Shown here piece by piece: positions 1,988-29,847 of a stretch of 30,676 nt of DNA (its first letter is position 1; every line of letters begins with the position of its first letter). Under the pieces are notes generated by a model, which was not told the DNA's origin, made no database searches, and saw only the letters and a program-made list of their open reading frames with translations. The position numbers were made by a program, and so were the translations under genes. Origin of the DNA: a virus; the IMG/VR virus record IMGVR_UViG_3300006100_000053, positions 1 through 30,676 of that record, one strand, 5' to 3'.

Positions 1988-2506
1988 CTATTCCTGAGAA
2001 TGTATAAAAGTAAAATGCTCTGCTTCTGCCCTTTTCCTAGCAGCTATGGCATCTTTGATATCGAGGTAAGACCCAAAATACATGCTTCGCCCTTTATGTT
2101 TAAGTCGGACTATCCATCTACTGTTCTTAGGGTTCCATATAACACCTTTGTACCCAGAGGTGTTGTTTTTTCCTACCGCCCTATTTTGGTTGTTATCGCT
2201 AGCGTTGTTATACGCTATCCGTAAATTGCAAACTCTGTTGTCCGCCCGATCTCTGTTTATGTGGTCTAGCTGACATCTAGGAAGTTCACCATAATACAAA
2301 AACCAGATTACCCTGTGGACCAAAACGGGCTTTCTGCCTACTCTAACCTCTCTATAACCCGATGTCGTTGTAGACCCCGCTTCCTGTCCCGCCTTTATAG
2401 CACCATTACACTTCGGCTCTTTCCAGTAAATTCTGCCTGTCTCTGGATCGTAGTCCCATAATTGCTGGGCATTTTCAACAATGATATGATCGTTCCGCAT
2501 CTTCAA
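1988..2506 (-). CDS. HNH homing endonuclease with AP2-like DNA-binding domain
   Basis: 172 aa. The N-terminal part contains YDPETGRIYWKE and then HRVIWFLYYGELP...LDHINRDRADNRVCNLR (about residues 65-100), the H...DH...N core of the HNH_3 nuclease family. The C-terminal part, NTSGYKGVIWNPKNSRWIV...YFGSYLDIKDAIAARKRAE (about 115-160), matches the AP2 DNA-binding fold that often accompanies phage HNH endonucleases. The gene stands alone between two virion genes on the same strand and is preceded by a hairpin; it is probably a selfish homing gene rather than a structural one. I found no duplicated host-gene fragment around it, unlike the GIY-YIG gene at 5704-6342. Activity and target are not visible. 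Confidence 0.85.
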   Translation of the reverse strand: MKMRNDHIIVENAQQLWDYDPETGRIYWKEPKCNGAIKAGQEAGSTTTSGYREVRVGRKPVLVHRVIWFLYYGELPRCQLDHINRDRADNRVCNLRIAYNNASDNNQNRAVGKNNTSGYKGVIWNPKNSRWIVRLKHKGRSMYFGSYLDIKDAIAARKRAEAEHFTFIHSQE

Positions 2507-5010: not shown

Positions 5011-5714
5011 TACCAGCCACCACCCAAGTACCCAGCCATCGGAACAAATCTCACAGGACTTTTATCTCTGTCCTCATCCATTGCCAACTGCAATGCTTCA
5101 TCATAAGACGCTTTCAGCATCTGCAGTCTATTCATATCCAAATCCGGTTGTTTTCTACCCAAATGATACGAAAGTCCCGCGGTCAATGCTTCGTAAAAAC
5201 GGAAAGGTACATCTTGCGTTGTAGCACCTGACTGCCCAGCGTCTTGAACGCGGCGCAGATACCAATAATGAAAAGAGTAGCCCGATTGATTGGGCACTTG
5301 CCACAAGTAAATTTTCGGGATAGGTGACTGCCTGTTTACCCATACCTGTACGGGGCGTCCTTGCGACAGCTTGTTTGGGATCGCGTCATAAGTCGGCAGG
5401 GCTATACGTGGGATAACTAAATCGGTCTGGTTGTATTGGCTACCCGGATTCTGTCGAATCACTTGATCAACAAGGTCTACGCAGTCTTCTGGAAGATCGT
5501 AAATGTACTGTCCTTGGGTGAGCGGGATGTCCGCTTCTTCGTAAGTCCAAAGATTCAACCCGTGGTTAGCAAGCTCGGTTATGAGATAGTTGAGACTTCG
5601 TCGCGCGGTACGAGCTTGGTAACCCGTGCGGATTTCGACCCCAACTCTTTCATAACTTTCTTCAATAATTTCATCTAGCTGGGGGTTCCAATTAGCTGTT
5701 CCACTAGTCGCCAT
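5010..5714 (-). CDS. Head-tail adaptor / neck protein
   Basis: 234 aa. Starts MATSGTANWNPQLDEIIEESYERVGVEIRTG, then YQARTARRSLNYLITELANHGLNLW (helical), ADIPLTQGQYIYDLPEDCVDL (beta), a PVQVWVNRQ...KIYLWQVPN sheet and a C-terminal helix (LDMNRLQMLKASYDEALQLAMDEDRD). This order matches adaptor/tubular-type neck proteins of short-tailed phages. Its ATG is inside the 3' end of the GIY-YIG gene (11-nt overlap). A 20-codon relic of the same N-terminus lies on the other side of that endonuclease (6345-6407). The present 5' end is largely recoded relative to the relic, pointing to repair or replacement after invasion. Confidence 0.7.
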   Translation of the reverse strand: MATSGTANWNPQLDEIIEESYERVGVEIRTGYQARTARRSLNYLITELANHGLNLWTYEEADIPLTQGQYIYDLPEDCVDLVDQVIRQNPGSQYNQTDLVIPRIALPTYDAIPNKLSQGRPVQVWVNRQSPIPKIYLWQVPNQSGYSFHYWYLRRVQDAGQSGATTQDVPFRFYEALTAGLSYHLGRKQPDLDMNRLQMLKASYDEALQLAMDEDRDKSPVRFVPMAGYLGGGW

Positions 5715-6342
5715 TATTTGTTGCCTCCGCTTTACGCCTGCGCCATGATTCTAACAGCGCTGCGCTCCGCATTGCGCGCTCCTCTTCAGATTGCACCCTG
5801 CCTCTGGTCTTAGCGTGGGCTGCGGCTGTTATTTGTGGAGACATGCCTCTTTTCTTAGCGGAAGCGCTGATATTACGTCGATGCTCTTCAGAGAATACTT
5901 TACCTTGCATACTCCGCGATACTTTCAATCTGTGCGCTTCTGGTAGCGGTTTTCCTTTTCTCGCGGTTACGGTAGCGGTTCGGCAGGCTGCTGATACGCC
6001 GCGTTTTTTTGCCGCTATGGACAACTTCTCTAATGTCTCCGGTGTTAAAACTGTGCCCTTCTCGCCACCATCCGTGCAATTAGTTAGTTTAACTCCAGAA
6101 CGTTTGAGACACTTGATGATGCCCCGTTCCAACTCTAGTGATATCGCATCAGATGAGCATTCTATGGTTCCGATAAAAATGTTTTCCTTACCGTGCTTAG
6201 CTACGACCCGCTTATGGTACTCATTCCGTTCCCTAAGATTTTTTGCTCGGCGCATAGCACCCTTGCCTACATAAAAAATAGACCCATCAGGACGACAGTG
6301 CACATACGCATATCTGGTCGTTTCTGGATTTATTGCTCTCAT
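5704..6342 (-). CDS. GIY-YIG homing endonuclease with NUMOD3-type repeats
   Basis: 212 aa. The N-terminal domain has YAYVHCRPDGSIFYVGKG (residues 11-28), the GIY-YIG signature in its Y-x-Y...YVGKG form. It is followed by a basic stretch (RRAKNLRERNEYHKRVV) and SLELERGIIKCLK, where a Glu supplies the catalytic metal ligand in this family. The second half has repeated LTPETLEKLSIAAKKRG, LPEAHRLKVSRSMQGK, FSEEHRRNISASAKKRG and QSEEERAMRSAALLESW units, typical DNA-binding NUMOD3 motifs. It begins 2 nt after the truncated relic of the adaptor gene and overlaps the intact adaptor start, so it interrupts that gene. Target specificity is not visible. Confidence 0.9.
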   Translation of the reverse strand: MRAINPETTRYAYVHCRPDGSIFYVGKGAMRRAKNLRERNEYHKRVVAKHGKENIFIGTIECSSDAISLELERGIIKCLKRSGVKLTNCTDGGEKGTVLTPETLEKLSIAAKKRGVSAACRTATVTARKGKPLPEAHRLKVSRSMQGKVFSEEHRRNISASAKKRGMSPQITAAAHAKTRGRVQSEEERAMRSAALLESWRRRKAEATNNGD

Positions 6343-8893: not shown

Positions 8894-9709
8894 TCAGTCA
8901 GTATATCTAAAACTCCACCCCTCGGCTTTGCCTTTTGTCAGGGCGTTGCCAGATTTTAAAGCCCTATCCACCGTGGGTGGAGTCAGCCCAAGCTCCTTTC
9001 GAAGCTGAGTGATTGTAGCAAACCTATGCTCTACACCAGCAGGATCCGTCGCTATGACGGCGCGGCCCATCTTCTCCTTTGACTCCTCCGAATGAGTGCG
9101 ACCTTCCCAGTGACTGTAGTGCCCCGCCTCAGCTGCGGCACGGATTTTGGCACGGCCTTCAGCGGATATGGTTCTCCCGGGCGCTTTAGGTTTACCACGT
9201 TGAGCATCGCCAATCTTTTTACGTGTCTCCTCTGAAACTGTTTTACCGTAGCGGTAGTGGTCTGCGCCTGCTGCTTTACCTTTACGCGTCTCTGACATCT
9301 GAGCGCGGGATTCTTCTGTATGTGCTACGCCTTGCCGAGGGTGTCCCTCTCGTTTAAGCCATGCTTTGGTTTTTTCAGCTAATTTAGCCCGGATCTCTGG
9401 GCTCGCATCCCTCATAGGGGAGTCGGCGTGGGCAGCTACGTTGTAGCAGTAGTCTTTACCGAAATGCTCGTCCAGCCATTTTTGTTCCGCTGGGTACAAC
9501 TCGTCTTTAGAGCTATGCGTCTCTAGCACTTCGAATTTAAAACAGTCCTCGCCATATTTGTTCCATGCACGTTGCAAATGCACGCAGTCATGGTTCCCTA
9601 AGCGAAGAGCTTTTCTATGCGCCCAAAAGCGTTTGCGAGAGTCGACTGTGCTGCCTACGTAGTAGTGGTCGTTGACTACGTTTCGGATTTTGTAAATTAC
9701 GTTCTTCAT
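8894..9709 (-). CDS. GIY-YIG homing endonuclease (SegB-like) with NUMOD3 repeats
   Basis: 271 aa. GIY-YIG domain at residues 1-85: VIYKIRN, YYVGSTVDSRKRFWAHR with catalytic-type Tyr and Arg, and PAEQKWLDEHFG with the expected Glu near residue 75. Residues about 125-205 carry repeated NUMOD3 helices (HTEESRAQMSETRKGK, VSEETRKKIGDAQRGKPK, HSEESKEKMGRAV). The end, FATITQLRKELGLTPPTVDRALKSG, is a helix-turn-helix of NUMOD1 type. GGAGG precedes the ATG. The gene is a self-contained cassette between the major capsid gene and the next virion gene, with its own promoter and terminator, unlike the intrusive GIY-YIG at 5704-6342. Confidence 0.93.
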   Translation of the reverse strand: MKNVIYKIRNVVNDHYYVGSTVDSRKRFWAHRKALRLGNHDCVHLQRAWNKYGEDCFKFEVLETHSSKDELYPAEQKWLDEHFGKDYCYNVAAHADSPMRDASPEIRAKLAEKTKAWLKREGHPRQGVAHTEESRAQMSETRKGKAAGADHYRYGKTVSEETRKKIGDAQRGKPKAPGRTISAEGRAKIRAAAEAGHYSHWEGRTHSEESKEKMGRAVIATDPAGVEHRFATITQLRKELGLTPPTVDRALKSGNALTKGKAEGWSFRYTD

Positions 9710-18289: not shown

Positions 18290-18820
18290 TTATAGCCTCT
18301 CCGCCGTCCCTTCGATCACTTTTTCGCCAGAGAACCGCTTTATGGCACTCAGAAGTTCCTTTTCGAGGTCTGCGGTAGGCATCGTGTTGATGTTGATCTC
18401 CGTTTTCTCGGTTGCGAGGCCGACTACGGACGATTTTGCGAGAGAATCAAGCGCAGGTTTGCTGATTTTCGGGTCTGGATCGAGTGAAAGCTCGAAATAC
18501 TTGTACATCACATAGTTCTGCCACTGTTCCTGAGAGGCAGGCATGACGAAATTGAACCGCTCAAGCTGGCTTTTGAAGAATCTTTCAGCCGCATAGCTGG
18601 GTGGAGGGCTGGTGTTCTCGGGGGTAGTGGCCTTTTGCGCCAGCCATTGCTTGTCTTCAGCGGATAAAGGCACTTCCTTGTCGGAAGGCAGCTTGCCTGC
18701 CTGAAAGCTTGCGCGAGAAAAGATCTCTTCCATAGGGCAACGTGCCTCAAGTGGCACGGGAACATCGTCGATGGCACCATCAGGTGCCCAATCGTCCAGC
18801 TCAAAATATAAATTGTCCAT
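18290..18820 (-). CDS. Putative terminase small subunit
   Basis: 176 aa, first gene of the minus-strand operon and contiguous with TerL. The N-terminus is acidic (MDNLYFELDDWAPDGAIDDV). The middle, SYAAERFFKSQLERFNFVMP...WQNYVMYKYFELSLDPDPKI, is helical. The C-terminus, PTADLEKELLSAIKRFSGEK, is another helix. Small size, helical content and position directly before TerL fit a small subunit, which recognises packaging sites on the phage genome. No clear helix-turn-helix is visible, so the assignment is by position. The ribosome-binding site is weak (ACCTGCG). Confidence 0.5.
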   Translation of the reverse strand: MDNLYFELDDWAPDGAIDDVPVPLEARCPMEEIFSRASFQAGKLPSDKEVPLSAEDKQWLAQKATTPENTSPPPSYAAERFFKSQLERFNFVMPASQEQWQNYVMYKYFELSLDPDPKISKPALDSLAKSSVVGLATEKTEININTMPTADLEKELLSAIKRFSGEKVIEGTAERL

Positions 18821-18957
18821 CGCAGGTCACACGAAGTACCAGAAGGCATGACGATAGCACGAGGCAAAGGGCGAATCAAACGTATAGCGGGTGCTATAGA
18901 ATAGTATACAAAATTTTGTATGGAAATTTTTTGAGTTGGATGGGACCCAAAGGGTTT

Positions 18958-18987
18958 GGGGGTATGTAGGGGGAAGAGGGGGTGGGG
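18958..18987 (+). other. G-quadruplex-type motif
   Basis: Four runs of G on the plus strand: G5 (18958-18962), G5 (18969-18973), G5 (18978-18982) and G4 (18984-18987), with loops of 6, 4 and 1 nt. It meets the usual quadruplex sequence rule comfortably. Whether it folds is unknown. Confidence 0.6.
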
Positions 18988-19094
18988 CTCACTATGTGAG
19001 CTTGGGTTATGTAGTAAAAATTTTTAGTGAGGATGGGACCCAGAATGTGAGATTGGAAAATGGGGATTGAATGTGCGGATCACAGTTTATGTGC

Positions 19095-19155
19095 GCGCGT
19101 GGGACTCCGCTGACCAGAGGGGCCTCCCCCCGGAGGTGGGGTCGCGCCCACGCGC
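19095..19155. repeat. GC-rich nested inverted repeat
   Basis: Outer arms GCGCGTGGG (19095-19103) and CCCACGCGC (19147-19155) are perfect; an inner pair CCTCC (19123-19127) / GGAGG (19132-19136) closes a 4-nt C loop. It could form a large cruciform or RNA stem. It is followed by CG-rich repeats (CGCGCGTTCGCGCG). Confidence 0.55.
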
Positions 19156-19228
19156 CTGCGCCCGCGCGTTCGCGCGCGTTCGCGCATCATGCGCCCGCGC
19201 TACGCGCCTTCCTCTAAGCGGATCTTTG

Positions 19229-19248
19229 AACTTCATACGTATGAAGTT
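19229..19248. repeat. 20-bp palindrome, copy 1
   Basis: AACTTCATACGTATGAAGTT, perfectly self-complementary. It lies 9 nt upstream of the -35 of the promoter at 19258-19285, a position suited to an activator or an operator. Confidence 0.9.
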
Positions 19249-19257
19249 AAACAAGGG

Positions 19258-19285
19258 TTGACACGGTTAGCTATTGGTGTATGAT
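19258..19285 (+). promoter_or_regulatory. Sigma70 promoter of first plus-strand gene
   Basis: TTGACA (19258-19263), 16-nt spacer, TATGAT (19280-19285). About 85 nt upstream of the ATG at 19370; predicted transcript start near 19292. Confidence 0.75.
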
Positions 19286-19320
19286 GGGAACCGTGGAAGG
19301 CAACAAGCCAACCACGCAAT

Positions 19321-19351
19321 CGAACCGCGCGTTCGGTTCGTTCTTTAACAA
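19321..19351 (+). promoter_or_regulatory. boxB-like hairpin plus rrn-type boxA (antitermination leader)
   Basis: In the 5' leader, a hairpin CGAACCG-(6 nt)-CGGTTCG (19321-19340) is followed at once by GTTCTTTAACAA (19340-19351). The latter matches the rRNA boxA consensus (TGYTCTTTAACAA), the RNA site bound by NusB/S10. The order boxB then boxA is that of rrn leaders. The ribosome-binding site GGAG follows 7 nt later. Confidence 0.55.
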
Positions 19352-19369
19352 ACTGATTGGAGATTTACT

Positions 19370-20008
19370 ATGGCAGCACAAGCCAAAAAACCAATAGCCG
19401 AAATCGTCGGCTTTCTCACCAATGCCGGTAATGCGGTTGGCGCAATGGTCAAGGCGCAAGCCGATGGCCGCGAGTCCATGAAAAAGACTCGGGAAGCCGT
19501 GAAAGCGGCGGTCGAAGTTCACCGCGCCGAACTCAACCTCAACCTGAAAGCCGCAAAGCTGGCAGGTTGGAAGTGGACGGGCACGGCTAAAACAAATTCG
19601 GGTATCAAAGCCTTGATGGACTCTCAAACCCAGCAGGGACTTGAAAAGGGTTCGGTTGCTAACAACCTTTCCGCCATGAAAAATTTCTACAATGGCGGCA
19701 AGAATGGGTACGAAGTAACGGACCTCAACCCGAGCCGATTCAAGGAAAAGACGCGGCACATCGACCTGATCGACGGCAAGGTCATCAAATTGGCCGCGGC
19801 TGATATCCCTTGCACTGAATCACTGATTCTCTCACTGGATCGCGAAGGTTTCGGGGCGATCGCTCTCGGGGTGTTCGAGACTCTCGGGGTCGATGTTAAG
19901 ACGGTCAAGAAAGCCGACGAAAAAATCATCGCGGCTTTCAAGTCCACGCTAGTTGCTAAGGGATACGCGGTACTCGACGCGAAGGGCAAACTGACGGTAA
20001 AGAAATGA
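19370..20008 (+). CDS. Early protein of unknown function
   Basis: 212 aa; GGAG 7 nt before the ATG, and its own sigma70 promoter and leader. Not recognised. Residues 1-70 are helical and Ala/Lys-rich (KAQADGRESMKKTREAVKAAVEVHRAELN). Residues 80-110 carry SQTQQGLEKGSVANNLSAMKNFYNGG, resembling the packed-helix core seen in some DNA-binding or recombinase N-terminal domains, but the match is weak. The end is basic (VKKADEKIIAAFKSTLVAKG...GKLTVKK). It is the first gene of the plus arm and probably expressed early and strongly. It could be a DNA-binding or regulatory protein; this is only a guess from charge and place. Confidence 0.75.
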   Translation: MAAQAKKPIAEIVGFLTNAGNAVGAMVKAQADGRESMKKTREAVKAAVEVHRAELNLNLKAAKLAGWKWTGTAKTNSGIKALMDSQTQQGLEKGSVANNLSAMKNFYNGGKNGYEVTDLNPSRFKEKTRHIDLIDGKVIKLAAADIPCTESLILSLDREGFGAIALGVFETLGVDVKTVKKADEKIIAAFKSTLVAKGYAVLDAKGKLTVKK

Positions 20009-20076
20009 GATTCACCGTCTACATGATCGTGATGCTAGGGTTATACATTCTCACTCACTCTTGCACCACATATTAA
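20005..20076 (+). CDS. Tiny membrane peptide
   Basis: 23 aa, MRFTVYMIVMLGLYILTHSC then TTY. The ATG overlaps the previous stop (ATGA), so translation could be coupled. Nearly all of it is one hydrophobic segment ending in a Cys. Its small size makes it uncertain; a strong point is that a second hydrophobic mini-gene follows. Confidence 0.4.
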   Translation: MRFTVYMIVMLGLYILTHSCTTY

Positions 20077-20082
20077 CCATAC

Positions 20083-20102
20083 GGGGCCGAGCAATCGGCC
20101 CC
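20083..20102 (+). other. GC-rich intergenic hairpin
   Basis: Perfect 8-bp stem GGGGCCGA / TCGGCCCC with a GCAA (GNRA-type) tetraloop between the two mini-genes. There is no U-run, so more likely mRNA stabilisation or processing than termination. Similar hairpins sit before other plus-strand genes. Confidence 0.6.
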
Positions 20103-20117
20103 ACTTTCGGAGATACC

Positions 20118-20192
20118 ATGAAAGATAAATACGTTATTTGGTTCTTGATCTTCGGTTTGTTGATCCTCCCCGGATTGATTGAAAAATTCTAA
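20118..20192 (+). CDS. Tiny single-span membrane protein
   Basis: 24 aa, MKDKYVIWFLIFGLLILPGL followed by IEKF. CGGAGATACC supplies a good ribosome-binding site before the ATG. It has one hydrophobic segment with charged ends. It lies directly before a strong terminator, so it is the last gene of this short operon. Function unknown; small phage membrane peptides can act in lysis timing or superinfection exclusion. Confidence 0.5.
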   Translation: MKDKYVIWFLIFGLLILPGLIEKF

Positions 20193-20205
20193 GTTCCTCC
20201 CTCCT

Positions 20206-20235
20206 GCCCGTCACGTTCGCGTGACGGGCTTTTTT
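20206..20235 (+). terminator. Rho-independent terminator
   Basis: 10-bp perfect stem GCCCGTCACG / CGTGACGGGC, TTCG tetraloop and a TTTTTT run. Ends the 19370-20192 operon. Confidence 0.93.
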
Positions 20236-20357
20236 GTGTCTGAAGGTAGGTCAGCCTACCCTACGTTCGTTTCGCGCCTTGTGGACGCTCTCACGAAGCC
20301 AGTAGTCGGGCAAGGGGCGTCAGGGATGAGGCGCGCGAGGGCGCACGACGAGGGGCG

Positions 20358-20377
20358 AACTTCATACGTATGAAGTT
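20358..20377. repeat. 20-bp palindrome, copy 2
   Basis: Perfect copy. It lies between the two 26-nt direct repeats in the gene-free region. Confidence 0.9.
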
Positions 20378-20422
20378 GTAGAGATGAGAAGCCAGTAGGA
20401 TGGCAAGGGGCGTGGTGGTTTG

Positions 20423-20442
20423 AACTTCATACGTATGAAGTT
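20423..20442. repeat. 20-bp palindrome, copy 3
   Basis: Perfect copy, 9 nt after the second 26-nt direct repeat and 65 nt from copy 2 (start to start). Confidence 0.9.
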
Positions 20443-20554
20443 GGTGATAAAAGCATGGCAGGCTACGTGCAGCCCACACCAGACGCGAGGGTAAAGAATA
20501 AAAATTAGAAGCGCGGAAAGTAGGCACTACAGGACTTTTTATGCACAGCCCTTA

Positions 20555-20574
20555 GAGGCAACGGGAGGCAACGG
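20555..20574 (+). repeat. Tandem 10-bp repeat
   Basis: Two adjacent copies of GAGGCAACGG, next to the AT-rich segment. Iteron-like in position, but only two units. Confidence 0.5.
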
Positions 20575-20592
20575 GCTTTCTCTCTCTATAAT

Positions 20593-20622
20593 AAGTTTTA
20601 TAAAAAATAATATATAAAACTT
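20593..20622. repeat. AT-rich inverted repeat
   Basis: Perfect 10-bp arms AAGTTTTATA / TATAAAACTT around a 10-nt AT loop. The 30-nt unit is almost free of G/C, so it would melt easily; candidate unwinding element. Confidence 0.55.
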
Positions 20623-20859
20623 TAGCGAGTATCTCCCCGGCTATGTCTATCTCTGTCTACTCCTCCCGTTCTATCTCTCTATCTATAGCTTGGTGCTTTT
20701 TTATTTATAAAACCTTTTTCTAAACTAAAGAACCCGCTCATCCCCCGTCACACCTAGCCCGTCCATTAAAGTTGTCGGTTCCTCGTTTTTCTGTTACATT
20801 TAGTCCGTCCTTTTAATCCCGCGCCCCGCAAGGGCTGAACACCACATAGGAGGTTTTTA

Positions 20860-21786
20860 GTGGGTATGCTACGCGATCTCATGAACAATTCAGTTGACGT
20901 TATCCGTGTGGATAGCAATGCTCGTGCAGAAAAGAAAGAACTTACACCCGAGGAACGCGAGTTCTACCGAACTGCCAGTATGCGCTACGAACCCGACACC
21001 GACACCCTCTACATCAAGGCCCAAGTAGCCAAAGAGCTTTACGAATGTGGAGGATATGAAACACTCAGGCTCACCGATAGCTTCATCTGTTCAAAACTGA
21101 CAGGGTTCTACAAGGGCACTCCCTACAAAGGAGCACAATGCCAATGCCACATTTACGACCTGAGTAAGAAGGAAGAACTACGTGCTGATCGACTGAACCC
21201 GCCCGAGCATGAGTATAAGAAAACCGCCGCGCGCATGCGTAGGCGATACCGGAATGACGTTGCCCTTGTTGCCCGTGCTATGGATGAGTGGGTCGAGCAG
21301 TACCGCGAGCGCATGATCCGTGGCGAGCACATGGCACATAATAGAAAGACAGAGGAGGAACTGGAACGTGAGCGCATGATGCGCCGTATCCGCACGCTTG
21401 AAAGAAAAGTTCTGCATCGTGCCAAACCCAAAGAAAAGGCACAGCGCGCTACGCTATCGGAGCTGGACAATTATATAGCCGAACACAAACCGTTCATTCG
21501 GCGCACCGTAGTGAAGATAGAGAAGGTCGATGGCAAGTACGTATCCACAACCAAGCGTTACAACCCGGAGGACTACAAGCGCACATACGTAGGGCGGTTC
21601 GAGGATATAGAGAACACGATGGGAGGACGGTCGATCAAACTGCATCTACAAGTGGCCGCGTTAAAACTCTCCGTGCCGAACTTCAAACAGGATGTGCGCT
21701 ACACCCACTCACAGAAAACACGCATCAGCGAACAACCCAACGCGGCTCAGGACTGGTGTGCTGTGTTCGACCTGACGAGGAAATAA
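20860..21786 (+). CDS. Basic protein of unknown function
   Basis: 308 aa with a GTG start, chosen because AGGAGG lies 6 nt upstream; an ATG two codons later is too far. Not recognised. Residues 45-110 contain DTDTLYIKAQVAKELYECGG and GFYKGTPYKGAQCQCHIYDL. Residues 115-200 are a long, strongly charged helix (YKKTAARMRRRYRNDVALVA, EELERERMMRRIRTLERKVL) that may form a coiled coil or bind nucleic acid. The rest is mixed, with KPFIRRTVVKIEKVDG. It follows the repeat-rich region and leads a three-gene operon. DNA or RNA binding is possible from charge. Confidence 0.75.
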   Translation: MGMLRDLMNNSVDVIRVDSNARAEKKELTPEEREFYRTASMRYEPDTDTLYIKAQVAKELYECGGYETLRLTDSFICSKLTGFYKGTPYKGAQCQCHIYDLSKKEELRADRLNPPEHEYKKTAARMRRRYRNDVALVARAMDEWVEQYRERMIRGEHMAHNRKTEEELERERMMRRIRTLERKVLHRAKPKEKAQRATLSELDNYIAEHKPFIRRTVVKIEKVDGKYVSTTKRYNPEDYKRTYVGRFEDIENTMGGRSIKLHLQVAALKLSVPNFKQDVRYTHSQKTRISEQPNAAQDWCAVFDLTRK

Positions 21787-21787
21787 G

Positions 21788-22027
21788 ATGGATGCTCTCA
21801 TATTCAAAAGCGCGGATGACGTTTTATCTTTTATGGACAAGCTAAAGCTAGAGCACAGGAAAGCGATTGGTTTCTTTGTTACACACTTCCAACGACTAGA
21901 GGGTGCATACGTCTATCACTATAAACCACAAGCGGCGCTACGCTCACCAACCTTCGCTAATCAGGAAATCACCTGCCTAGCTGTCATCAACGCTACATAC
22001 GAGGATTGGAGGCTTCAGCATGGATGA
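21788..22027 (+). CDS. Small early protein, unknown
   Basis: 79 aa (MDALIFKSADDVLSFMDKLK...). The ATG lies 1 nt after the previous stop with GAGG 7 nt before. Mixed alpha/beta composition with FFVTHFQRLEGAYVYHYKPQ. Overlaps the next gene by 8 nt. Not recognised; small soluble early phage proteins often modify host functions, but nothing here shows that. Confidence 0.65.
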   Translation: MDALIFKSADDVLSFMDKLKLEHRKAIGFFVTHFQRLEGAYVYHYKPQAALRSPTFANQEITCLAVINATYEDWRLQHG

Positions 22028-22295
22028 GGTCACTGTTCTGCAGATGTACTCCTTCGGGGATAGCCAATACATCCTTGTGGAACTAACCCATGCGGGGAGG
22101 ATATTCAAGCTATCCTTCAGTCTGACAATCAGAGGGCGAGTGAAGATAACACCACCTGTGTTCGAGGTGCATAACCGGAACGAACATTCGCTCATAAACC
22201 AAGACAACTTGCCCCGTCCTGTGCGGAACTGGGTAGAAGAAATGAAACCCACACTCCTGATTGCCCTTCAAGGCGAAGGATGGGGTGACGAGTAG
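22020..22295 (+). CDS. Small early protein, unknown
   Basis: 91 aa (MDEVTVLQMYSFGDSQYILV...). Overlaps the previous gene by 8 nt, with GGAGG upstream. The sequence alternates beta strands (ELTHAGRIFKLSFSLTIRGRVKITPP) and ends with a Trp/Glu-rich helix (RPVRNWVEEMKPTLLIALQG). Last gene of this operon; the stop is 1 nt before a palindrome copy. Not recognised. Confidence 0.65.
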   Translation: MDEVTVLQMYSFGDSQYILVELTHAGRIFKLSFSLTIRGRVKITPPVFEVHNRNEHSLINQDNLPRPVRNWVEEMKPTLLIALQGEGWGDE

Positions 22296-22296
22296 G

Positions 22297-22316
22297 AACT
22301 TCATACGTATGAAGTT
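22297..22316. repeat. 20-bp palindrome, copy 4
   Basis: Perfect copy 1 nt after the stop of the gene ending at 22295. An inverted copy of the 11-mer GAAGCCAGTAG from the 20193-20859 region lies close by at 22327-22337. Confidence 0.9.
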
Positions 22317-22333
22317 GTGGGTGGCTCTACTGG

Positions 22334-22356
22334 CTTCGCCCCTTATGGGGGCGAAG
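22334..22356 (+). terminator. Intergenic hairpin after gene 22020-22295
   Basis: 9-bp stem CTTCGCCCC / GGGGCGAAG around a 5-nt loop. There is no clear U-run, so termination would be weak or Rho-dependent. It separates the upstream operon from the next promoter. Confidence 0.45.
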
Positions 22357-22424
22357 TGCCCATCAAACGCAGGGTAGGCCCCAAAAACACCCTATTTACG
22401 CGGGAACTCCAAAGTCCGTAGGGC

Positions 22425-22453
22425 TTGACAAGCCATGTATATGTGTGTATAAT
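22425..22453 (+). promoter_or_regulatory. Consensus sigma70 promoter with palindrome in leader
   Basis: TTGACA (22425-22430), 17-nt spacer, TATAAT (22448-22453): both boxes are perfect. It shares GTAGGGCTTGACAAGC with the promoter at 24007. Palindrome copy 5 begins 36 nt after the -10, about +30 in the transcript. Confidence 0.9.
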
Positions 22454-22488
22454 GGTAGCCTGAGTTGGAGAAATCCCACTCGCTTCCG

Positions 22489-22508
22489 AACTTCATACGT
22501 ATGAAGTT
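22489..22508. repeat. 20-bp palindrome, copy 5
   Basis: Perfect copy inside the 5' leader of the gene at 22549. As RNA it can fold to an 8-bp stem with an ACGU loop. It is followed by a second small hairpin CTCGG-CGTTA-CCGAG and then the ribosome-binding site. Confidence 0.9.
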
Positions 22509-22548
22509 CACGACGCTCGGCGTTACCGAGTTGTTTTAGGAGATTGCA

Positions 22549-22818
22549 ATGAAATACACGACTAAAAAGTTCGGCGCGAAGAACTGCCATGAGCGTACTT
22601 ATGAGAATGGTGCGCGGATATTCTTCTCTTACGCTACCCCTGTGGGTGCGTTCATGCCGGGAGTGGGAGCGGTGCGTACCACTGCTACGTATAGCAGGAC
22701 TACGAGTAATCACGTGACGATGTGGTCACGCGACGAGTTGTGTGGGTTCGCTACGGCGAATGATCTCAAGGACTTTTACCATGTGTGTGAGTACGAACCA
22801 CTGTGGACTCGTGGGTAA
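22549..22818 (+). CDS. Small early protein, unknown, strongly expressed
   Basis: 89 aa (MKYTTKKFGAKNCHERTYEN...). Driven by a perfect-consensus promoter with TTAGGAGATT as ribosome-binding site, so high early expression is expected. It has a basic N-terminus, a Gly/Thr-rich middle (PVGAFMPGVGAVRTTATYSR) and an acidic C-terminus (FATANDLKDFYHVCEYEPLW). It ends GTGGGTAA, whose last two bases begin a palindrome copy. Not recognised. Strong early promoters in phages often drive host-takeover or anti-defence proteins, which makes it worth testing, but the sequence itself shows no function. Confidence 0.7.
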   Translation: MKYTTKKFGAKNCHERTYENGARIFFSYATPVGAFMPGVGAVRTTATYSRTTSNHVTMWSRDELCGFATANDLKDFYHVCEYEPLWTRG

Positions 22819-22836
22819 CTTCATACGTATGAACTT
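22817..22836. repeat. 20-bp palindrome, copy 6 (one mismatch)
   Basis: AACTTCATACGTATGAACTT: one base differs from the perfect copies (GAACTT instead of GAAGTT). It begins within the stop codon of the preceding gene (TAA). It is directly followed by a GC hairpin. Confidence 0.85.
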
Positions 22837-22855
22837 GGCGGGGCCTCGCCCCGCC
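22837..22855 (+). other. GC-rich hairpin before gene 22874
   Basis: 8-bp perfect stem GGCGGGGC / GCCCCGCC with a 3-nt loop, abutting palindrome copy 6; no U-run. Same arrangement as at 26114-26155: stop, palindrome, GC hairpin, then AGGAGATA and ATG. Confidence 0.65.
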
Positions 22856-22873
22856 CTCAACAGGAGATAAGCA

Positions 22874-23242
22874 ATGTACGAAGTAAACGGTTGGCATAAG
22901 TTCGGTGAACAGGATCACTACGAGACTGGGTGCGACCCCGATGGTGGATACGTCAGTTTTGCGGGTAACGAGAGGTGGGGCGCTGAGACTATCCCTGATC
23001 TGCTTGATATGTTGCGCTCTTTCGTGGGTGTCGACGATGACTATGAGATCGAACTCGATGCCTGCGAGGAAGATGGGCGCGTGGATATCAGTGTGCTAGA
23101 GACTGCCCATAGTTACGTAGCTGACAAATGGGATATCGAGAAGTGGAAGCGAGGCGAACTGGATCTGTGGTATTCCACGTACACATTCACAGTAGAAAAA
23201 GTAGAGCGTAGGTTTGTGCGTCTGAAGGAGAATGACCAATGA
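22874..23242 (+). CDS. Acidic small protein, unknown
   Basis: 122 aa (MYEVNGWHKFGEQDHYETGCDP...), notably acidic: DLLDMLRSFVGVDDDYEIELDACEEDGRVDIS. AGGAGATAAGC precedes the ATG. It is a compact protein with several Trp and Tyr. Highly acidic small early phage proteins include DNA mimics that block nucleases or regulators; that is only a possibility suggested by charge. It overlaps a tiny ORF (ATGA) and shares its transcript with the following genes. Confidence 0.7.
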   Translation: MYEVNGWHKFGEQDHYETGCDPDGGYVSFAGNERWGAETIPDLLDMLRSFVGVDDDYEIELDACEEDGRVDISVLETAHSYVADKWDIEKWKRGELDLWYSTYTFTVEKVERRFVRLKENDQ

Positions 23243-23310
23243 CCAAGAAACCAACCAAGAGTAAATCGTTCGCGAGGTGGGAGTATGGTGCACAACCCCG
23301 ATGGTGGTGA
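23239..23310 (+). CDS. Possible 23-aa coupled peptide
   Basis: MTKKPTKSKSFARWEYGAQP then RWW. Its ATG overlaps the previous stop (ATGA) and it runs into the start of the next gene. Very basic and short. It may simply couple translation between the two flanking genes rather than encode a functional product. Confidence 0.3.
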   Translation: MTKKPTKSKSFARWEYGAQPRWW

Positions 23311-23602
23311 GAAGTTTTCGTTTGAGTATGGGAGCGAAGATCACGAGTTTGTGCGACTGAGCCGAGTAACCATAACGCGAGTGAGTGACGGAGTGCGGTG
23401 CTCCGTCACAGGGAATGGTATCAAGCGAGATATTAGAGTGCCCGTCCATGTGGCTGTGTATTGGCCTAATGGTGAAGCGATGGCGTGGACTACATACGAG
23501 GGTGATGGTACGTCGAACCTAACGTATATGCGAGAGATCGAACCCGACTTCGTAGAGGAGATAGATAGACAGATCCCTCTGCTGACAATAATGCTGAGTT
23601 AG
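23285..23602 (+). CDS. Small early protein, unknown
   Basis: 105 aa (MVHNPDGGEKFSFEYGSEDH...). AGGTGGGAG lies 1-2 nt before the ATG, close but usable. Predicted beta-rich (FVRLSRVTITRVSDGVRCSV, IRVPVHVAVYWPNGEAMAWT) with an acidic C-terminal helix. Not recognised. It is in an operon with 22874 and 23611, so any shared role would concern all three. Confidence 0.65.
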   Translation: MVHNPDGGEKFSFEYGSEDHEFVRLSRVTITRVSDGVRCSVTGNGIKRDIRVPVHVAVYWPNGEAMAWTTYEGDGTSNLTYMREIEPDFVEEIDRQIPLLTIMLS

Positions 23603-23610
23603 GAGGAGAT

Positions 23611-23862
23611 ATGCGAGAGTGGGTCGTCATAAATTTAGAGAAGGAAACATCGAAGGGTATGAACCGGATGCACGTATACATAGGCAATGGATCAGGCCGA
23701 CTCTATGTAGCAACGTACTTTCATACGGACAAGTGGTATCTGGATCATCACGTACGTTCCCCCTATAGCGTGGCATATATACCCGCAGGGTGTGCCCCTC
23801 GTGCAGTCAAGAGGAAGATCAAAGAAGCGTACCCACTCATTGCGCTGATAGAATTCGATTAA
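23611..23862 (+). CDS. Small early protein, unknown
   Basis: 83 aa (MREWVVINLEKETSKGMNRM...). AGGAGGAGAT directly before the ATG is a strong ribosome-binding site. Alternating strands (MHVYIGNGSGRLYVATYFHT) and a basic segment (APRAVKRKIKEAYPLIALIE). Last gene before the hairpin-rich gap leading to the next promoter. Not recognised. Confidence 0.65.
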   Translation: MREWVVINLEKETSKGMNRMHVYIGNGSGRLYVATYFHTDKWYLDHHVRSPYSVAYIPAGCAPRAVKRKIKEAYPLIALIEFD

Positions 23863-23867
23863 CGGTG

Positions 23868-23907
23868 GGAGGTGTAGACCTCCGGGGCGTAAGCCATGAG
23901 TGGCCCC
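23868..23907 (+). terminator. Possible terminator hairpins after 23611-23862
   Basis: A 6-bp hairpin GGAGGT-GTAG-ACCTCC (23868-23883) is followed by GGGGC...GCCCC (23884-23907). No clean U-run follows, so termination is uncertain. The rest of the gap to 24005 shows nothing I can name. Confidence 0.35.
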
Positions 23908-24005
23908 TTGCATAATAACCTTGGCAGGTAGCGATGGTCATCGGTGCGTTGCACCCGTCTTATATCTCCGATCAGGCGCTACCACTATTTATGATTTCTG
24001 TAGGG

Positions 24006-24035
24006 CTTGACAAGCTGTGTCAAGTAGTGTATAAT
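24006..24035 (+). promoter_or_regulatory. Consensus sigma70 promoter with overlapping operator-like inverted repeat
   Basis: TTGACA (24007-24012), 17-nt spacer, TATAAT (24030-24035). An inverted repeat CTTGACA-N5-TGTCAAG (24006-24024) covers the -35 and half the spacer, where a repressor would block RNA polymerase. Upstream sequence GTAGGGCTTGACAAGC is shared with the promoter at 22425. It drives the DUF3150-MoxR-VWA genes. Confidence 0.88.
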
Positions 24036-24072
24036 GTATTCCACAGTTGGCGGACTGTATCCGCTTAGTTCC

Positions 24073-24092
24073 AACTTCATACGTATGAAGTT
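24073..24092. repeat. 20-bp palindrome, copy 7
   Basis: Perfect copy in the leader of the DUF3150-like gene, 38 nt after the -10, the same spacing class as copy 5. Confidence 0.9.
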
Positions 24093-24121
24093 CTTTTCGA
24101 CCTTTCGTTTAGGAGTGAATC

Positions 24122-25006
24122 ATGAACGCTGTTGTTAATTTAGTTTCTGTTGCCCCGACCCTGCACAGCAGTGCAGTCCTTGTGAATCTGAAGATCGGTA
24201 TCTGGAACACAAGACGTAAGGACAAGCAACAGACCGAGAAGGTTAAGAATGATGCGGGTGCTCAGGGTAACGTGGGTGCATACAACAAGAACATCATGCC
24301 TGACTTCAAGGAGTTGGAGGCGATCAATAAGTTCGGTGCGGATAGTAGGAATTGGTGCAAGCGTGAGACTGTACCGTGGACGTTCGATGGTGTGAACGTG
24401 CTGTCTACCGAGAAGTTATGGAATGGTTTCGATCAGGAGATGCAGGATAGGCAGAAGCATTTCTATGACATGGTTGAGTTGGTGCTGATCGAGTATGCAC
24501 AGGCTAGGCAGATAGCGCAGTTCCGACTGAACTCCATGTTCGATGTGAATGAGTACCCGACTGTCGATGAGGTGCGCCGTAAGTTCTACTTCGAGTATAG
24601 CTATCACCCTGTCCCGCAGACAGGTGACTTCCGGGTTGACGTTGGCAATCAGGGGTTGCAGTTTCTACAGGAGCAGTTCGAGCGTGAGGCTAACAAGGCA
24701 GTTAGTGAAGCTATGTCATCACTATGGGAGCGAGTTAAGAAGATAACCGAGACTTTGAGTAACCAACTGCGTGTGTCCAAGGATGAGAAGGGCAAGATGT
24801 ATCAGTCCACACTTGATACTGCGCTCGATCTCTGCGCGATGATGAAGGATCTGAACCTGACGGGTGATCCCAAGATGGAGCAGATGCGTAGGGAACTTTA
24901 CTCTACGTTGAATGGTATGGACCTGACTGACCTGAAGAAGAATGACAGCGCACGACTGTCAGTGAAGCAGGAGATCGACGATCTCCTCAGCAAGTTCGAG
25001 TTCTAA
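24122..25006 (+). CDS. DUF3150-like protein, partner of MoxR ATPase
   Basis: 294 aa. SSAVLVNLKIGIWNTRRKDK...VKNDAGAQGNVGAYNKNIMP (about residues 16-60) and ETVPWTFDGVNVLSTEKLW (about 82-102) follow the pattern I know for DUF3150 proteins, which are encoded next to MoxR-type AAA+ and VWA genes in phages and plasmids. The rest is mainly helical (EEQFEREANKAVSEAMSSLW region, 185-240). The first gene under a strong promoter, with TTAGGAGTG as ribosome-binding site. No catalytic motif. Likely a substrate, adaptor or structural component acting with the ATPase 26 nt downstream; the role has not been worked out as far as I know. Confidence 0.75.
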   Translation: MNAVVNLVSVAPTLHSSAVLVNLKIGIWNTRRKDKQQTEKVKNDAGAQGNVGAYNKNIMPDFKELEAINKFGADSRNWCKRETVPWTFDGVNVLSTEKLWNGFDQEMQDRQKHFYDMVELVLIEYAQARQIAQFRLNSMFDVNEYPTVDEVRRKFYFEYSYHPVPQTGDFRVDVGNQGLQFLQEQFEREANKAVSEAMSSLWERVKKITETLSNQLRVSKDEKGKMYQSTLDTALDLCAMMKDLNLTGDPKMEQMRRELYSTLNGMDLTDLKKNDSARLSVKQEIDDLLSKFEF

Positions 25007-25032
25007 TTGTAATTATTTTTAGGAGTGTAATC

Positions 25033-26115
25033 ATGAAAGTTTCTAAGGCGTATTCATCTGTATCTCTTGCCGATGCAACCGAGTTGCTCGCGTCCTCTGG
25101 GCATCTTGTGACCTATCTGTTCTCGGGTGAGATGGGTATCGGTAAGTCATCCATGCTCAAGTCACTCAAGAAGAAGTTCGGGGACAAGTACCACTACTGC
25201 TACGTGGACATGACCATCAAGGACGTAGGTGACTTCCTGATTCCCAAGATCATGACGGTTGATGGTGTCGAGGTGTGCCGGTTCGTACCCAACGAGGAGT
25301 TCGGTGTGCATCTGGATAAGCCTGTCATCTGTATGTTCGATGAGTTAGGCAAGGCGATGCGAGCGGTACTCAATGCGTCACTGCGTCCTATCCTTGAACG
25401 TGCATTGGGTGGGTATCTGTTCCCCGAGGGTTCAATCGTATTCGCTACGACCAACCTATCCATCGAAGGTCTGGGTGATGTGATCCCTGCCCATGCTCGC
25501 AATCGTATGGTGCAGTGTGAGATTCGTAAGCCGACTGCTATGGAGTGGGTCGAGGACTACGCTATTGCTCATCAGCTTGAGCCTGTGGTGATTGGTACGG
25601 TGATCGAGTTCCCGCAGATGTTCCAGTCCTTCAAGGAGGTCGAAGATCCTGCGAGCAACCGATATATCAATGACCCGCGGTGCCCACGTACGGCTGTCGT
25701 TACGCATCGTTCTATGGAGAGTGCGAGCAAGGTATACCGTGCGACCAAGCATCTGCCTGATGATGTTCGCCTTCATGCTTTGGCGGGTGCGATTGGTGAG
25801 GCGGCGGCGTTGGACATGATGACCATCGTCAAGTTGGATGAGGAGTTGCCTACGTGGGATCAGATCATCCGTGACCCTGACGCTACCAAGGTATCGTCCT
25901 CTGCTGTGGCTAACTGCATGATCGTATCCAAGGCGTGTATGCGTGTGGATCGTGAGACGTTCGGTGCATGGATGACCTACTGCAAGCGTCTGCCCAAGGA
26001 AGTGCAGGCGCTATTCGCCAAGACCATTATGCGTGGTGAGAAGATGGCACTCGCGGCTACCTTCGCTGACTTCACCGCGTGGGCAAAAAATAATATGTAT
26101 CTGTTCACCAAGTAA
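25033..26115 (+). CDS. MoxR-like AAA+ ATPase
   Basis: 360 aa. Walker A GEMGIGKSS (residues 32-40), Walker B VICMFDELGKA (98-108), sensor-1 type FATTN (137-141), and IPAHARNRM (151-159) with Arg residues fitting the arginine finger. The AAA+ core fills residues 1-170, followed by a helical lid and a C-terminal region (FPQMFQSFKEVEDPASN..., HRSMESASKVYRATKHLPDD). MoxR ATPases act as chaperone-like remodelling machines with VWA proteins. AGGAGTG precedes the ATG. The downstream palindrome begins in its stop codon. All ATPase motifs are intact, so it should hydrolyse ATP. Confidence 0.88.
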   Translation: MKVSKAYSSVSLADATELLASSGHLVTYLFSGEMGIGKSSMLKSLKKKFGDKYHYCYVDMTIKDVGDFLIPKIMTVDGVEVCRFVPNEEFGVHLDKPVICMFDELGKAMRAVLNASLRPILERALGGYLFPEGSIVFATTNLSIEGLGDVIPAHARNRMVQCEIRKPTAMEWVEDYAIAHQLEPVVIGTVIEFPQMFQSFKEVEDPASNRYINDPRCPRTAVVTHRSMESASKVYRATKHLPDDVRLHALAGAIGEAAALDMMTIVKLDEELPTWDQIIRDPDATKVSSSAVANCMIVSKACMRVDRETFGAWMTYCKRLPKEVQALFAKTIMRGEKMALAATFADFTAWAKNNMYLFTK

Positions 26116-26133
26116 CTTCATACGTATGAAGTT
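26114..26133. repeat. 20-bp palindrome, copy 8
   Basis: Perfect copy beginning in the TAA stop of the ATPase gene. It is the last copy in the window. Confidence 0.9.
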
Positions 26134-26137
26134 CAAC

Positions 26138-26155
26138 GGGGCGGGTGACCGCCCC
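26138..26155 (+). other. GC-rich hairpin before gene 26169
   Basis: 7-bp stem GGGGCGG / CCGCCCC with a GTGA (GNRA-type) loop, 4 nt after palindrome copy 8 and just before AGGAGATAGC. Without a U-run it is probably an RNA processing or stability element. Confidence 0.6.
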
Positions 26156-26168
26156 ATAGGAGATAGCA

Positions 26169-26501
26169 ATGAGCAAGCCTAAAGAGATTTACGGTAGGGT
26201 CAACATAGGGTGGGGAGGCAATGTGATCCTTCCTCTTGAGCAGGCACATAAGGTGCAGGAGATATTTGCTAGGTATGCAGTTGGTTTCGGTGATGCGTAC
26301 CGACCAGACGAGCCGAACATCAAGTATGTAAAGGACTACGGTGTGCCCGACGTATGTGTGACTGAGTACCCTGCCTATGACTGCACAGGCATGACGGCAA
26401 AGCAGATAGAAGAATGGGAGCAAGCGGTGCGCCACTCAGAGGGCAACACCTTTCTTACACCCCAAGAGTTTATGGCAATGAGGAGTGACAACAATGAATA
26501 A
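26169..26501 (+). CDS. Small protein between ATPase and VWA genes
   Basis: 110 aa (MSKPKEIYGRVNIGWGGNVI...). AGGAGATAGC precedes the ATG. Contains VILPLEQAHKVQEIFARYAV, then DAYRPDEPNIKYVKDYGVPD and a C-terminal helix (GMTAKQIEEWEQAVRHSEGN). Not recognised. It lies inside the MoxR-VWA operon and overlaps the VWA gene by 8 nt, so it is co-translated with it and may be a specific component of the module. Confidence 0.7.
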   Translation: MSKPKEIYGRVNIGWGGNVILPLEQAHKVQEIFARYAVGFGDAYRPDEPNIKYVKDYGVPDVCVTEYPAYDCTGMTAKQIEEWEQAVRHSEGNTFLTPQEFMAMRSDNNE

Positions 26502-29128: not shown

Positions 29129-29425
29129 ATGAAGACCTATGAATTGAACGCTGTGGAAGCATACCTTGCGCTGACCGCCCTGCGCTTTACCGCAGAGCAG
29201 GGATATACCTATGAGATCGAACATGGAGGGGATCTTACGGATTACCACGGGATGAAAGCCCTGATCGAGAGGCTCGAGCCTAAGCCGGCGAAGAAACACG
29301 CATGGATGGTGGTGTACCCGGACGAGTCTAGGTCTAGGCTCTTTGATTATCAGGACGATGCGGCAGGGTGGGCGTGTCATGCGCCGGAGAAATGTAAGGT
29401 AGTGCAGGTTACATGGGAGGAGTGA
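29129..29425 (+). CDS. Unknown small protein
   Basis: 98 aa (MKTYELNAVEAYLALTALRF...). The ATG is 1 nt after the previous stop, with GGGGAAG upstream. Contains a helix (AVEAYLALTALRFTAEQGYT), then PKPAKKHAWMVVYPDESRSR and a short Trp-rich end. Its stop overlaps the next start (TGATG). Not recognised; soluble and mixed in composition. Confidence 0.65.
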   Translation: MKTYELNAVEAYLALTALRFTAEQGYTYEIEHGGDLTDYHGMKALIERLEPKPAKKHAWMVVYPDESRSRLFDYQDDAAGWACHAPEKCKVVQVTWEE

Positions 29426-29847
29426 TGAGTAAGTCCATAAACCCCGGCGAGAACAACGGGCAGTCCAAGCTGACGATGGAGGCAGTGCAGATCATTCGAC
29501 ACCTGCTTCGCTGTGGGCATTCGGGTAAGGAAATCGCTACGGTTTATGGGCTCTCGTCTGGCCTGATCTCAGGCATACGCACAGGCAAGTTGTGGTCAGC
29601 ACCGGAGGAAGAATTGGTGGACAAGAATAAATTCAAGGGGCGTCCCTTCAGGGACGAGGACATTCAGATTATCACCGAGGAGGTGACGTATCTCATAGAG
29701 CAGGGCTATCGCGCACAGGACAGGGATCGTATTCTCGAAGGACTCGAAGTGGCTCTCGATGGCTCGACCAAGGACGAGTGGAGGCTGTGGACAGGGATGA
29801 AGTTGAGGAATGTGATTGATGACTTTTACATATTAGGAGCACCGTGA
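29425..29847 (+). CDS. Helix-turn-helix DNA-binding protein
   Basis: 140 aa from the ATG at 29425 (GGGAGGAG upstream, overlapping the previous stop as TGATG). Residues 11-55 read NGQSKLTMEAVQIIRHLLRC then GHSGKEIATVYGLSSGLISG with IRTGKLW. This is a resolvase/NUMOD-type helix-turn-helix in which the recognition helix is GLSSGLISGIRTG. The rest is acidic and helical (EDIQIITEEVTYLIEQGYRA, RILEGLEVALDG). No nuclease motif follows, so a transcriptional regulator or DNA-binding accessory role is plausible. It is the only clear sequence-specific DNA-binding protein in the plus arm, and a candidate binder of the palindrome family. Confidence 0.7.
   Translation: MSKSINPGENNGQSKLTMEAVQIIRHLLRCGHSGKEIATVYGLSSGLISGIRTGKLWSAPEEELVDKNKFKGRPFRDEDIQIITEEVTYLIEQGYRAQDRDRILEGLEVALDGSTKDEWRLWTGMKLRNVIDDFYILGAP

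Follow-up and report, generated by a model that had tools for sequence, protein, structure and literature searches.

Lineage-specific palindrome arrays in phage early arms and a candidate partner gene family

What is a 20-bp palindrome doing when it recurs eight times in one arm of a phage genome? We address this question for a 30,676-nucleotide stretch of viral DNA (IMG/VR record IMGVR_UViG_3300006100_000053, positions 1 to 30,676; hereafter, the window), in which the palindrome AACTTCATACGTATGAAGTT is dispersed over the early arm. Comparison with related phages reveals that many of them have a different palindrome of their own in the same arm, ahead of a gene for a small, variable protein. 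On this comparative evidence, the palindromes are probably operators scattered through the early arm, to which a dimeric phage protein would bind to repress early transcription, including that of its own gene. The arrangement found in many related aquatic phages, a private early-arm palindrome beside a matching gene, has the appearance of a self-contained switch for early expression that evolves fast.

Late genes run leftward in this genome and the early arm runs rightward. A search of the window allowing up to three mismatches recovers seven perfect copies of AACTTCATACGTATGAAGTT and one with a single mismatch (at 22817), and 100 dinucleotide shuffles of the window contain no such site. An earlier description of this DNA (hereafter, the original prediction) had reported the same positions, the same count and the same mismatch, all of which are exactly reproduced. 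The eight copies are all in the early arm, with none before 19229 or after 26133, and the array copies are the only perfect palindromes of at least 18 bp in the window; ATACGTAT has no occurrence elsewhere in it. Three IMG/VR contigs of near-identical strains have 7, 7 and 8 copies, at unchanged spacings over the length that each contig covers. The longest of these (41,514 bases) continues through the late side without an additional copy, which bears out the earlier statement that copies are missing from the late arm and beyond 26133. The placement described there, between genes or at stop codons, upstream of a promoter and in leaders, is confirmed as well: all copies lie in gaps, in leaders or on a stop codon, and none lies within a gene body (Table 1). 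The flanks had been called unrelated, and those immediately next to the copies do differ, but the two promoter-leader units at 22415-22468 and 23997-24050 share 74% identity over their 54 nt (repeat family D3), and a palindrome follows each of them.

Table 1. Palindrome copies and associated features in the window
Feature	Position	Strand	Remark
Palindrome copy 1, perfect	19229..19248		Upstream of putative promoter of first early gene
Putative sigma70-type promoter of candidate regulator gene	19258..19285	+	TTGACA, 16 nt, TATGAT; consensus match only
Candidate palindrome-binding regulator	19370..20008	+	212 amino acids, isoelectric point 9.7, first early gene; predicted helix 93-109 is the putative recognition helix
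Palindrome copy 2, perfect	20358..20377		Long gap after first early gene
Palindrome copy 3, perfect	20423..20442		Same long gap as copy 2
Palindrome copy 4, perfect	22297..22316		Directly after TAG stop
Putative promoter	22425..22453	+	TTGACA-17-TATAAT, ends 35 nt before copy 5; consensus match
Palindrome copy 5, perfect	22489..22508		Leader of gene 22549
Palindrome copy 6, one mismatch	22817..22836		Overlaps TAA stop of gene 22549
Putative promoter	24007..24035	+	TTGACA-17-TATAAT, ends 37 nt before copy 7; consensus match
Palindrome copy 7, perfect	24073..24092		Leader of gene 24122
Palindrome copy 8, perfect	26114..26133		Overlaps TAA stop of MoxR-like ATPase gene

The large terminase (TerL) of the window is 47-57% identical to those of the Pelagibacter phages HTVC027P and HTVC023P, phage 023Pt_psg01, phage DSL-LC04 and Planktothrix phage Pag-Yong1. 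We scanned relatives de novo for perfect inverted repeats present at least three times (arm length 6, gap 0-5) and found that the early arms of many hold their own, different multi-copy palindrome; the same scan on 10 first-order Markov resampled sequences per contig found nothing. Examples of these lineage-specific arrays are TTTCATACnGTATGAAA, TTTCGTACnGTACGAAA, TTACTGTCnGACAGTAA, CTTCACACnGTGTGAAG, CGTACGGCnGCCGTACG, CCTAACAnTGTTAGG, CTCAAGTCnGACTTGAG and GTTAAGTAnTACTTAAC, with 6-13 core copies each, and just three perfect copies each are found in contigs G019 and G035. Over the first 50 kb of each record, HTVC023P has a three-copy palindrome, and HTVC027P, psg01 and DSL-LC04 have no array. 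The MoxR-like ATPase family encoded in the early arm is present in 18 of 50 terminase relatives searched, and the ATPase-bearing relatives G028, G037 and G046 show no array. In most arrays, about 1 kb separates the first copy from the terminase gene, and the copy stands just ahead of the first early gene. The original prediction had proposed that the 20-mer be sought in relatives with the same gene order, its absence counting against a function. It is indeed absent from them, yet this outcome is misleading, since the relatives carry other palindromes. The further claim that selection acts on exactly 20 bp with no spacer holds in this phage and not in most relatives, in which conservation extends over about 14-16 bp and a single central base is free to vary. 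Both L208 and L209 combine, in one contig, copies lacking a spacer with copies that have a spacer of 1, so the missing spacer of the window falls within the range of the family.

A link to a protein comes from the gene that follows the first copy. The first early gene in the arrays encodes a small, variable protein, and a search with two alignments of it returned 66 loci, nine of which are the contigs of the seed proteins, themselves picked for having arrays. At all 66 loci, a matching palindrome with 0-1 mismatch in its half-sites stands upstream of the gene. The distance from palindrome to start is about 90-170 bp at 65 of them and 436 at the other, L221, whose open reading frame call is truncated. 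At least two palindrome copies are present at 55 loci, and the remaining 11 have merely 65-390 bp of sequence downstream of the gene. For these 11, which have no downstream copies, we assigned a half-site from the most similar protein before inspecting the upstream sequence, and it was found upstream at every one (10 perfect, one with one mismatch); six of these predictions are informative, as the other five loci had an identical or nearly identical known protein. An extra family member, in a contig of an alphaproteobacterial metagenome-assembled genome, is accompanied by TTTCGTACnGTACGAAA in seven copies.

From the 66 loci, 53 distinct full-length proteins were retained, after 12 identical ones and the short L221 frame had been removed before alignment; the alignment used here (A4) holds 51 of these (L200 and L218 omitted) together with the window protein. 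Searches of Pfam and PHROGs with 51 proteins (expectation value (E) 0.01) revealed no shared family, with at most one protein per Pfam family and at most two per PHROG. A profile search of the family against the PDB gave a best E of 0.0022, for an entry named Tet4 Variant over 37 positions.

Does the window itself encode a member of this family? The protein of its first early gene, at 19370-20008, scores 28.2 against the family profile in hhalign. None of the 16 other window proteins tested exceeds 15.7, and 60 shuffled versions of the first-gene protein stay at or below 18.0. A score of 34.6 is reached by the corresponding protein of L013, a relative with a terminase that shares 85% identity with that of the window. 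The core of copy 1 is at -137 relative to the window gene, inside the 90-170 bp range of the family. In addition, the 10-nt half-site of the window, AACTTCATAC, is also the half-site of the copy before the L181 gene, where the site reads AACTTCATAC-C-GTATGAAGTT, that is, the window 20-mer plus one central base. The original prediction had favored a dimeric DNA-binding regulator, which the comparative evidence supports, and had named as a candidate the helix-turn-helix protein at 29425-29847, which it does not: that protein has no tblastn homologue in 15 palindrome-bearing relatives. The 19370-20008 protein likewise has none in the same 15. We prefer the latter on the basis of its profile similarity, its place beside copy 1 and the half-site common to relatives. 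Direct DNA binding by this protein is, in our view, probable. The SAM-like N-terminal domain of phage integrases (PF02899) matched the window protein at 13.6 bits, below the cut-off of 22.3. Loci L100-L103, considered as relatives of the window protein, were rejected as chance matches within a much longer unrelated protein (lysin-like by our reading).

We compared domains in 48 of 52 proteins (those at 95% identity or more were removed), which have among them 12 different 7-nt half-sites, and natural domain swaps are informative here. L208 and L199 have C-terminal domains that are 92% identical, helices that are 25% identical, and different half-sites. Conversely, the half-site is the same in L164 and L159 (C domain 24%, helix 82% identical) and in L185 and L179 (C domain 25%, helix 100% identical). 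In these swaps, the half-site tracks the N-terminal domain. Two alignment columns separate 10 TTCGTAC proteins from 16 TTCATA proteins with zero overlap, in a test confined to columns with an L159 residue and dependent on that alignment. These correspond to Q76 (Q/H versus K/A/P/S) and T82 (T versus N/V) of L159, and both lie within a predicted helix at 76-93, in a block with a mean predicted local distance difference test (pLDDT) score of 86-91. Helix 93-109 in the model of the window protein is its counterpart. In partial Mantel tests on the same 48 proteins, the helix correlates with the half-site (r 0.32, p 0.0005) and the rest of the N domain does so less (0.08, p 0.08). The C-terminal domains themselves are of at least two unlike types, swapped between N-terminal domains (L164, L182 and L185 versus L159 and L179), and perhaps serve dimerization or signal input.

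Where the copies lie bears on how they might act. Across 27 contigs, not all independent (G016 and L205 have the same protein) and many partial, 321 kb of early side contain 252 copies (within 2 mismatches of 16), and 201 kb of late side contain none. In a promoter and Shine-Dalgarno scan of 26 of these contigs (L205 omitted), a sigma70-like promoter lies upstream of 39 of 244 copies, 34 of these copies being 29-49 nt past the -10 box; the comparison count for such placement at random early-arm positions is 104 of 4880. A Shine-Dalgarno sequence and ATG follow within 80 bp downstream of 90 of the 244 copies (3 on the other strand) and 833 of the 4880 random positions. In the window, L193 and L206, copy 1 immediately precedes a putative promoter of the TTGACA type that would serve the regulator gene; in the window, this promoter begins 9 nt past the copy. 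The promoter match after copy 1 is weak in many other relatives.

By eye, some copies stand ahead of terminator-like sequences and a few are inside a reading frame. In G013 near 14450 and in G025 near 18657 (oriented contigs), one copy is apparently in frame, giving MTFVPYESNGV and MNFIPYEKDGV, and the encoded residues would vary with the palindrome of each phage.

Most copies appear to be transcribed, and the enrichment of Shine-Dalgarno and ATG downstream would suit RNA hairpins in early mRNAs that serve as processing, stability or translation signals, an option raised in the original prediction. Pairing in the imperfect copies of the 27 contigs gives no sign of being preserved: 71 deviating pairs comprise 58 broken, 12 GU and 1 Watson-Crick pair, and the 12 GU pairs are about the one sixth expected if pairing is irrelevant (our arithmetic). 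Most of these changes (59 of 71) fall on the outermost pair, where the consensus is weak. Searches of the window found no Rfam family, and both the position of copy 1 upstream of the putative promoter of its gene and the association of palindrome sequence with a protein domain speak against hairpins, which we regard as very unlikely. Unpreserved pairing, the free central base, copy 1 upstream of a promoter and the association with a protein domain lead us to favor recognition of double-stranded DNA by a dimer.

In the mechanism we propose, each palindrome would be a double-stranded DNA operator held by a dimer of the small basic protein from the first early gene, with one protomer reading each half-site (AACTTCATAC in the window) via helix 93-109. 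The position of copy 1, close ahead of the putative regulator promoter, would allow self-regulation. At the other copies, which lie in leaders about 35 nt past strong promoter-like sequences (35-37 nt past the TATAAT box for copies 5 and 7), in gene gaps and before ribosome sites, the bound protein would block the elongating host RNA polymerase. Blocking of this kind would damp the early arm, and could thereby time the early-to-late switch or silence a superinfecting related phage. We infer direct binding, dimerization, the roadblock, and repression rather than activation; for repression by roadblock, we see the chances as even.

The same protein and sites could instead belong to an activator, or to a histone-like protein that coats and organizes the early arm, e.g., for replication. 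Copy 1 closely precedes the -35 box, a possible binding location for activators, and this position also weighs against our preferred mechanism. The protein is small and basic, with a linker rich in Lys, Ala and Gly in many relatives, and 205 of 244 copies have no promoter-like sequence close upstream. However, the leader copies 29-49 nt past a -10 box are ill-suited to activating that promoter, and at most 15 sites per contig examined, with high sequence specificity, is unlike general DNA coating. We consider an activator or organizer unlikely.

Several further observations count against dispersed operators of this family, beginning with the distribution of the arrays. No array is seen in L014 (2.8 kb of early side) or L040 (5.4 kb). 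In G022, the first palindrome is about 3.6 kb from TerL, an exception to the usual position. Palindrome-bearing G048, G051, G022, G041, G050, G034 and G035 are without a detectable family member. The window protein is a remote member, missed by blast and by HMMER with the family model; its hhalign probability is merely 22.7 and the mean pLDDT of its model is 68. Solved folds offer no good match, the best VIA-align Z scores (7.4 and 5.0) being common for helical models, and this result does not establish a new fold.

The remaining points concern specificity. At least 4 independent changes between A and G in the half-site are needed when all of the protein is used for the tree, 3 of them being forced by branches with good support; an N-domain tree that omits the helix needs 2. 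These numbers are too small for a sign test, and the residue test is suggestive and phylogenetically not significant. The C domain correlates with the half-site too (partial Mantel r 0.28, p 0.0005), so the helix is not singled out by this test. L185 and L176 have helices that are 88% identical, yet their half-sites are TTCATAT and TTCATAC, one base apart.

As a separate observation, arrays or weaker repeats in G048, G051, G041, L060, G050, G034 and G035 accompany a first early gene without detectable kinship to the family. These first genes encode either distant members of the family or regulators of another, independent kind. The G041-type and G051-type genes were tried as kin and showed no kinship by hhalign; L060 and some other non-family first genes were compared by eye only.

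Several perfect palindromes bound by a phage protein would also suit a parS-like array that stabilizes a plasmid-like phage genome, and partition sites were among the options of the original prediction. In 19 records of the phage group, which may be fragments, we found no ParB_N or ParA-type family, while positive controls match in 10 and 14 of 14 genomes, and the sites are dispersed over about 7-9 kb in leaders and gene gaps rather than clustered; partition is now disfavored, and in our view highly improbable. The same 19 records contain no tyrosine or serine recombinase family, and lysogeny is for this reason not supported, with the caveat on fragments applying here as well. Two integrase matches were set aside because they are located in unrelated contigs of L100 and L101. 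Timing of the early-to-late transition or control of superinfection is a more likely use of dispersed operators than lysogeny. We also put forward, tentatively and with less confidence than in the operators themselves, that the arrays may form an immunity-like code in integrase-less aquatic phages: up to 15 private palindromic operators would silence a phage's own early arm, specificity would shift fast between close relatives as helices change and domains are exchanged, and a superinfecting phage would be shut off if its code were the same and would escape if it were different.

Another possibility is that the copies are sites for a host regulator or functionless mobile palindromic repeats, for which nothing speaks beyond the repetition itself. 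Their sequence is not the same from one related phage to the next and is coupled to a phage gene, the late side has no copies, the immediate flanks differ, and the exact 20-mer has no match in a bacterial and archaeal genome collection. This explanation is the least probable of those considered. The stretch 19000-26200 gave no blastn match among phage records. A search with PF00940, prompted by the idea of promoters for a phage RNA polymerase, found no match, and its positive control was equally without one, so the negative carries no weight.

Dispersed operator arrays are known in other phages. The stoperators of Cluster A mycobacteriophages are asymmetric, orientated with transcription, and found in temperate phages. 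P1 C1 and SPbeta YopR each exemplify one repressor acting at many operators across a phage genome; these phages are temperate and the repressors unrelated. The sites described here differ from the 13-bp asymmetric stoperators in being 20-bp perfect palindromes in the window and inverted repeats in relatives. In the 19 records, many of which may be fragments, no integrase family was found.

The comparisons that follow draw on excerpts of the cited papers. Stoperators of Cluster A measure 13 bp (PMC3203893) and, as sites of the L5 repressor with a proposed role in stopping transcription, they resemble the present array in being dispersed sites of one phage regulator (PMC4351075). Among the closest known systems are the 17-bp dyad repeats of Cluster O mycobacteriophages, with 34 copies in Corndog, for which dimeric DNA-binding proteins were predicted and the function was called unknown (PMC4351075). 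Shared features are the many copies of an invariant inverted repeat, its dyad symmetry, the location of most sites off promoters, and the lack of integrase or parAB, as in the records we searched (PMC4351075). The Cluster O repeats differ in having 7-bp TGTTCGG arms and a 3-bp spacer, as opposed to a spacer of 0-1 bp here; they occur genome-wide, with about one in three inside coding regions, whereas our arrays are confined to the early arm; and no binding protein is named in that excerpt, whereas a gene family is linked to the sites here (PMC4351075). The Start Associated Sequences of Cluster K are likewise restricted to the non-structural half, and their extended form has inverted repeats with a consensus that differs between subclusters; they are 13 bp, asymmetric and typically 3-7 bp from the start codon, unlike the symmetric sites at varied distances described here (PMC3203893). 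Asymmetric repeats in Nostoc phages have been suggested to be stoperators (PMC4916379).

The array misses defining features of Clusters O, A and K among those examined and is for that reason placed outside these families; we liken its working to a stoperator or dispersed-operator system without filing it as a member. We recognized no description of it in the open-license PMC literature, where five palindrome strings used as queries were also unmatched, and the word "palindrome" is absent from the main text of a pelagiphage paper (PMC9599517). Dispersed operator arrays themselves are known; what appears to be new is an array of palindromic sites, different in each lineage, together with a partner family that can be identified and is missing from Pfam. 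The dozens of natural variants compared here implicate the partner gene and suggest residues that may set specificity, which makes the proposal directly testable in vitro. If it is true, these phages provide a natural data set on protein-DNA recognition and add a DNA-binding family that Pfam lacks, and it should become possible to predict cross-regulation among environmental phages.

The surroundings of the array contain other features. A G-rich element of the GGGGGGTGGGG type, often with ATGGGACCCA near it, is found at 18914-19150 ahead of copy 1, and many relatives have one at the equivalent position. Because the neighboring gene sits where a small terminase gene would, a role of this element in packaging or replication is possible. 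The long non-coding gap after the first early gene (20190-20860) contains two palindromes and a strongly A+T-rich stretch, and in the matching gap of G025 a CCTGTATCCTTGACGCGTGCCA-like motif is repeated between palindrome copies. Besides the MoxR-like ATPase, the early arm encodes a metallopeptidase/VWA-like protein. Between late genes, the frames at 5704-6342, 8894-9709 and 1988-2506 (minus strand) resemble GIY-YIG or HNH homing endonucleases, as judged by eye.

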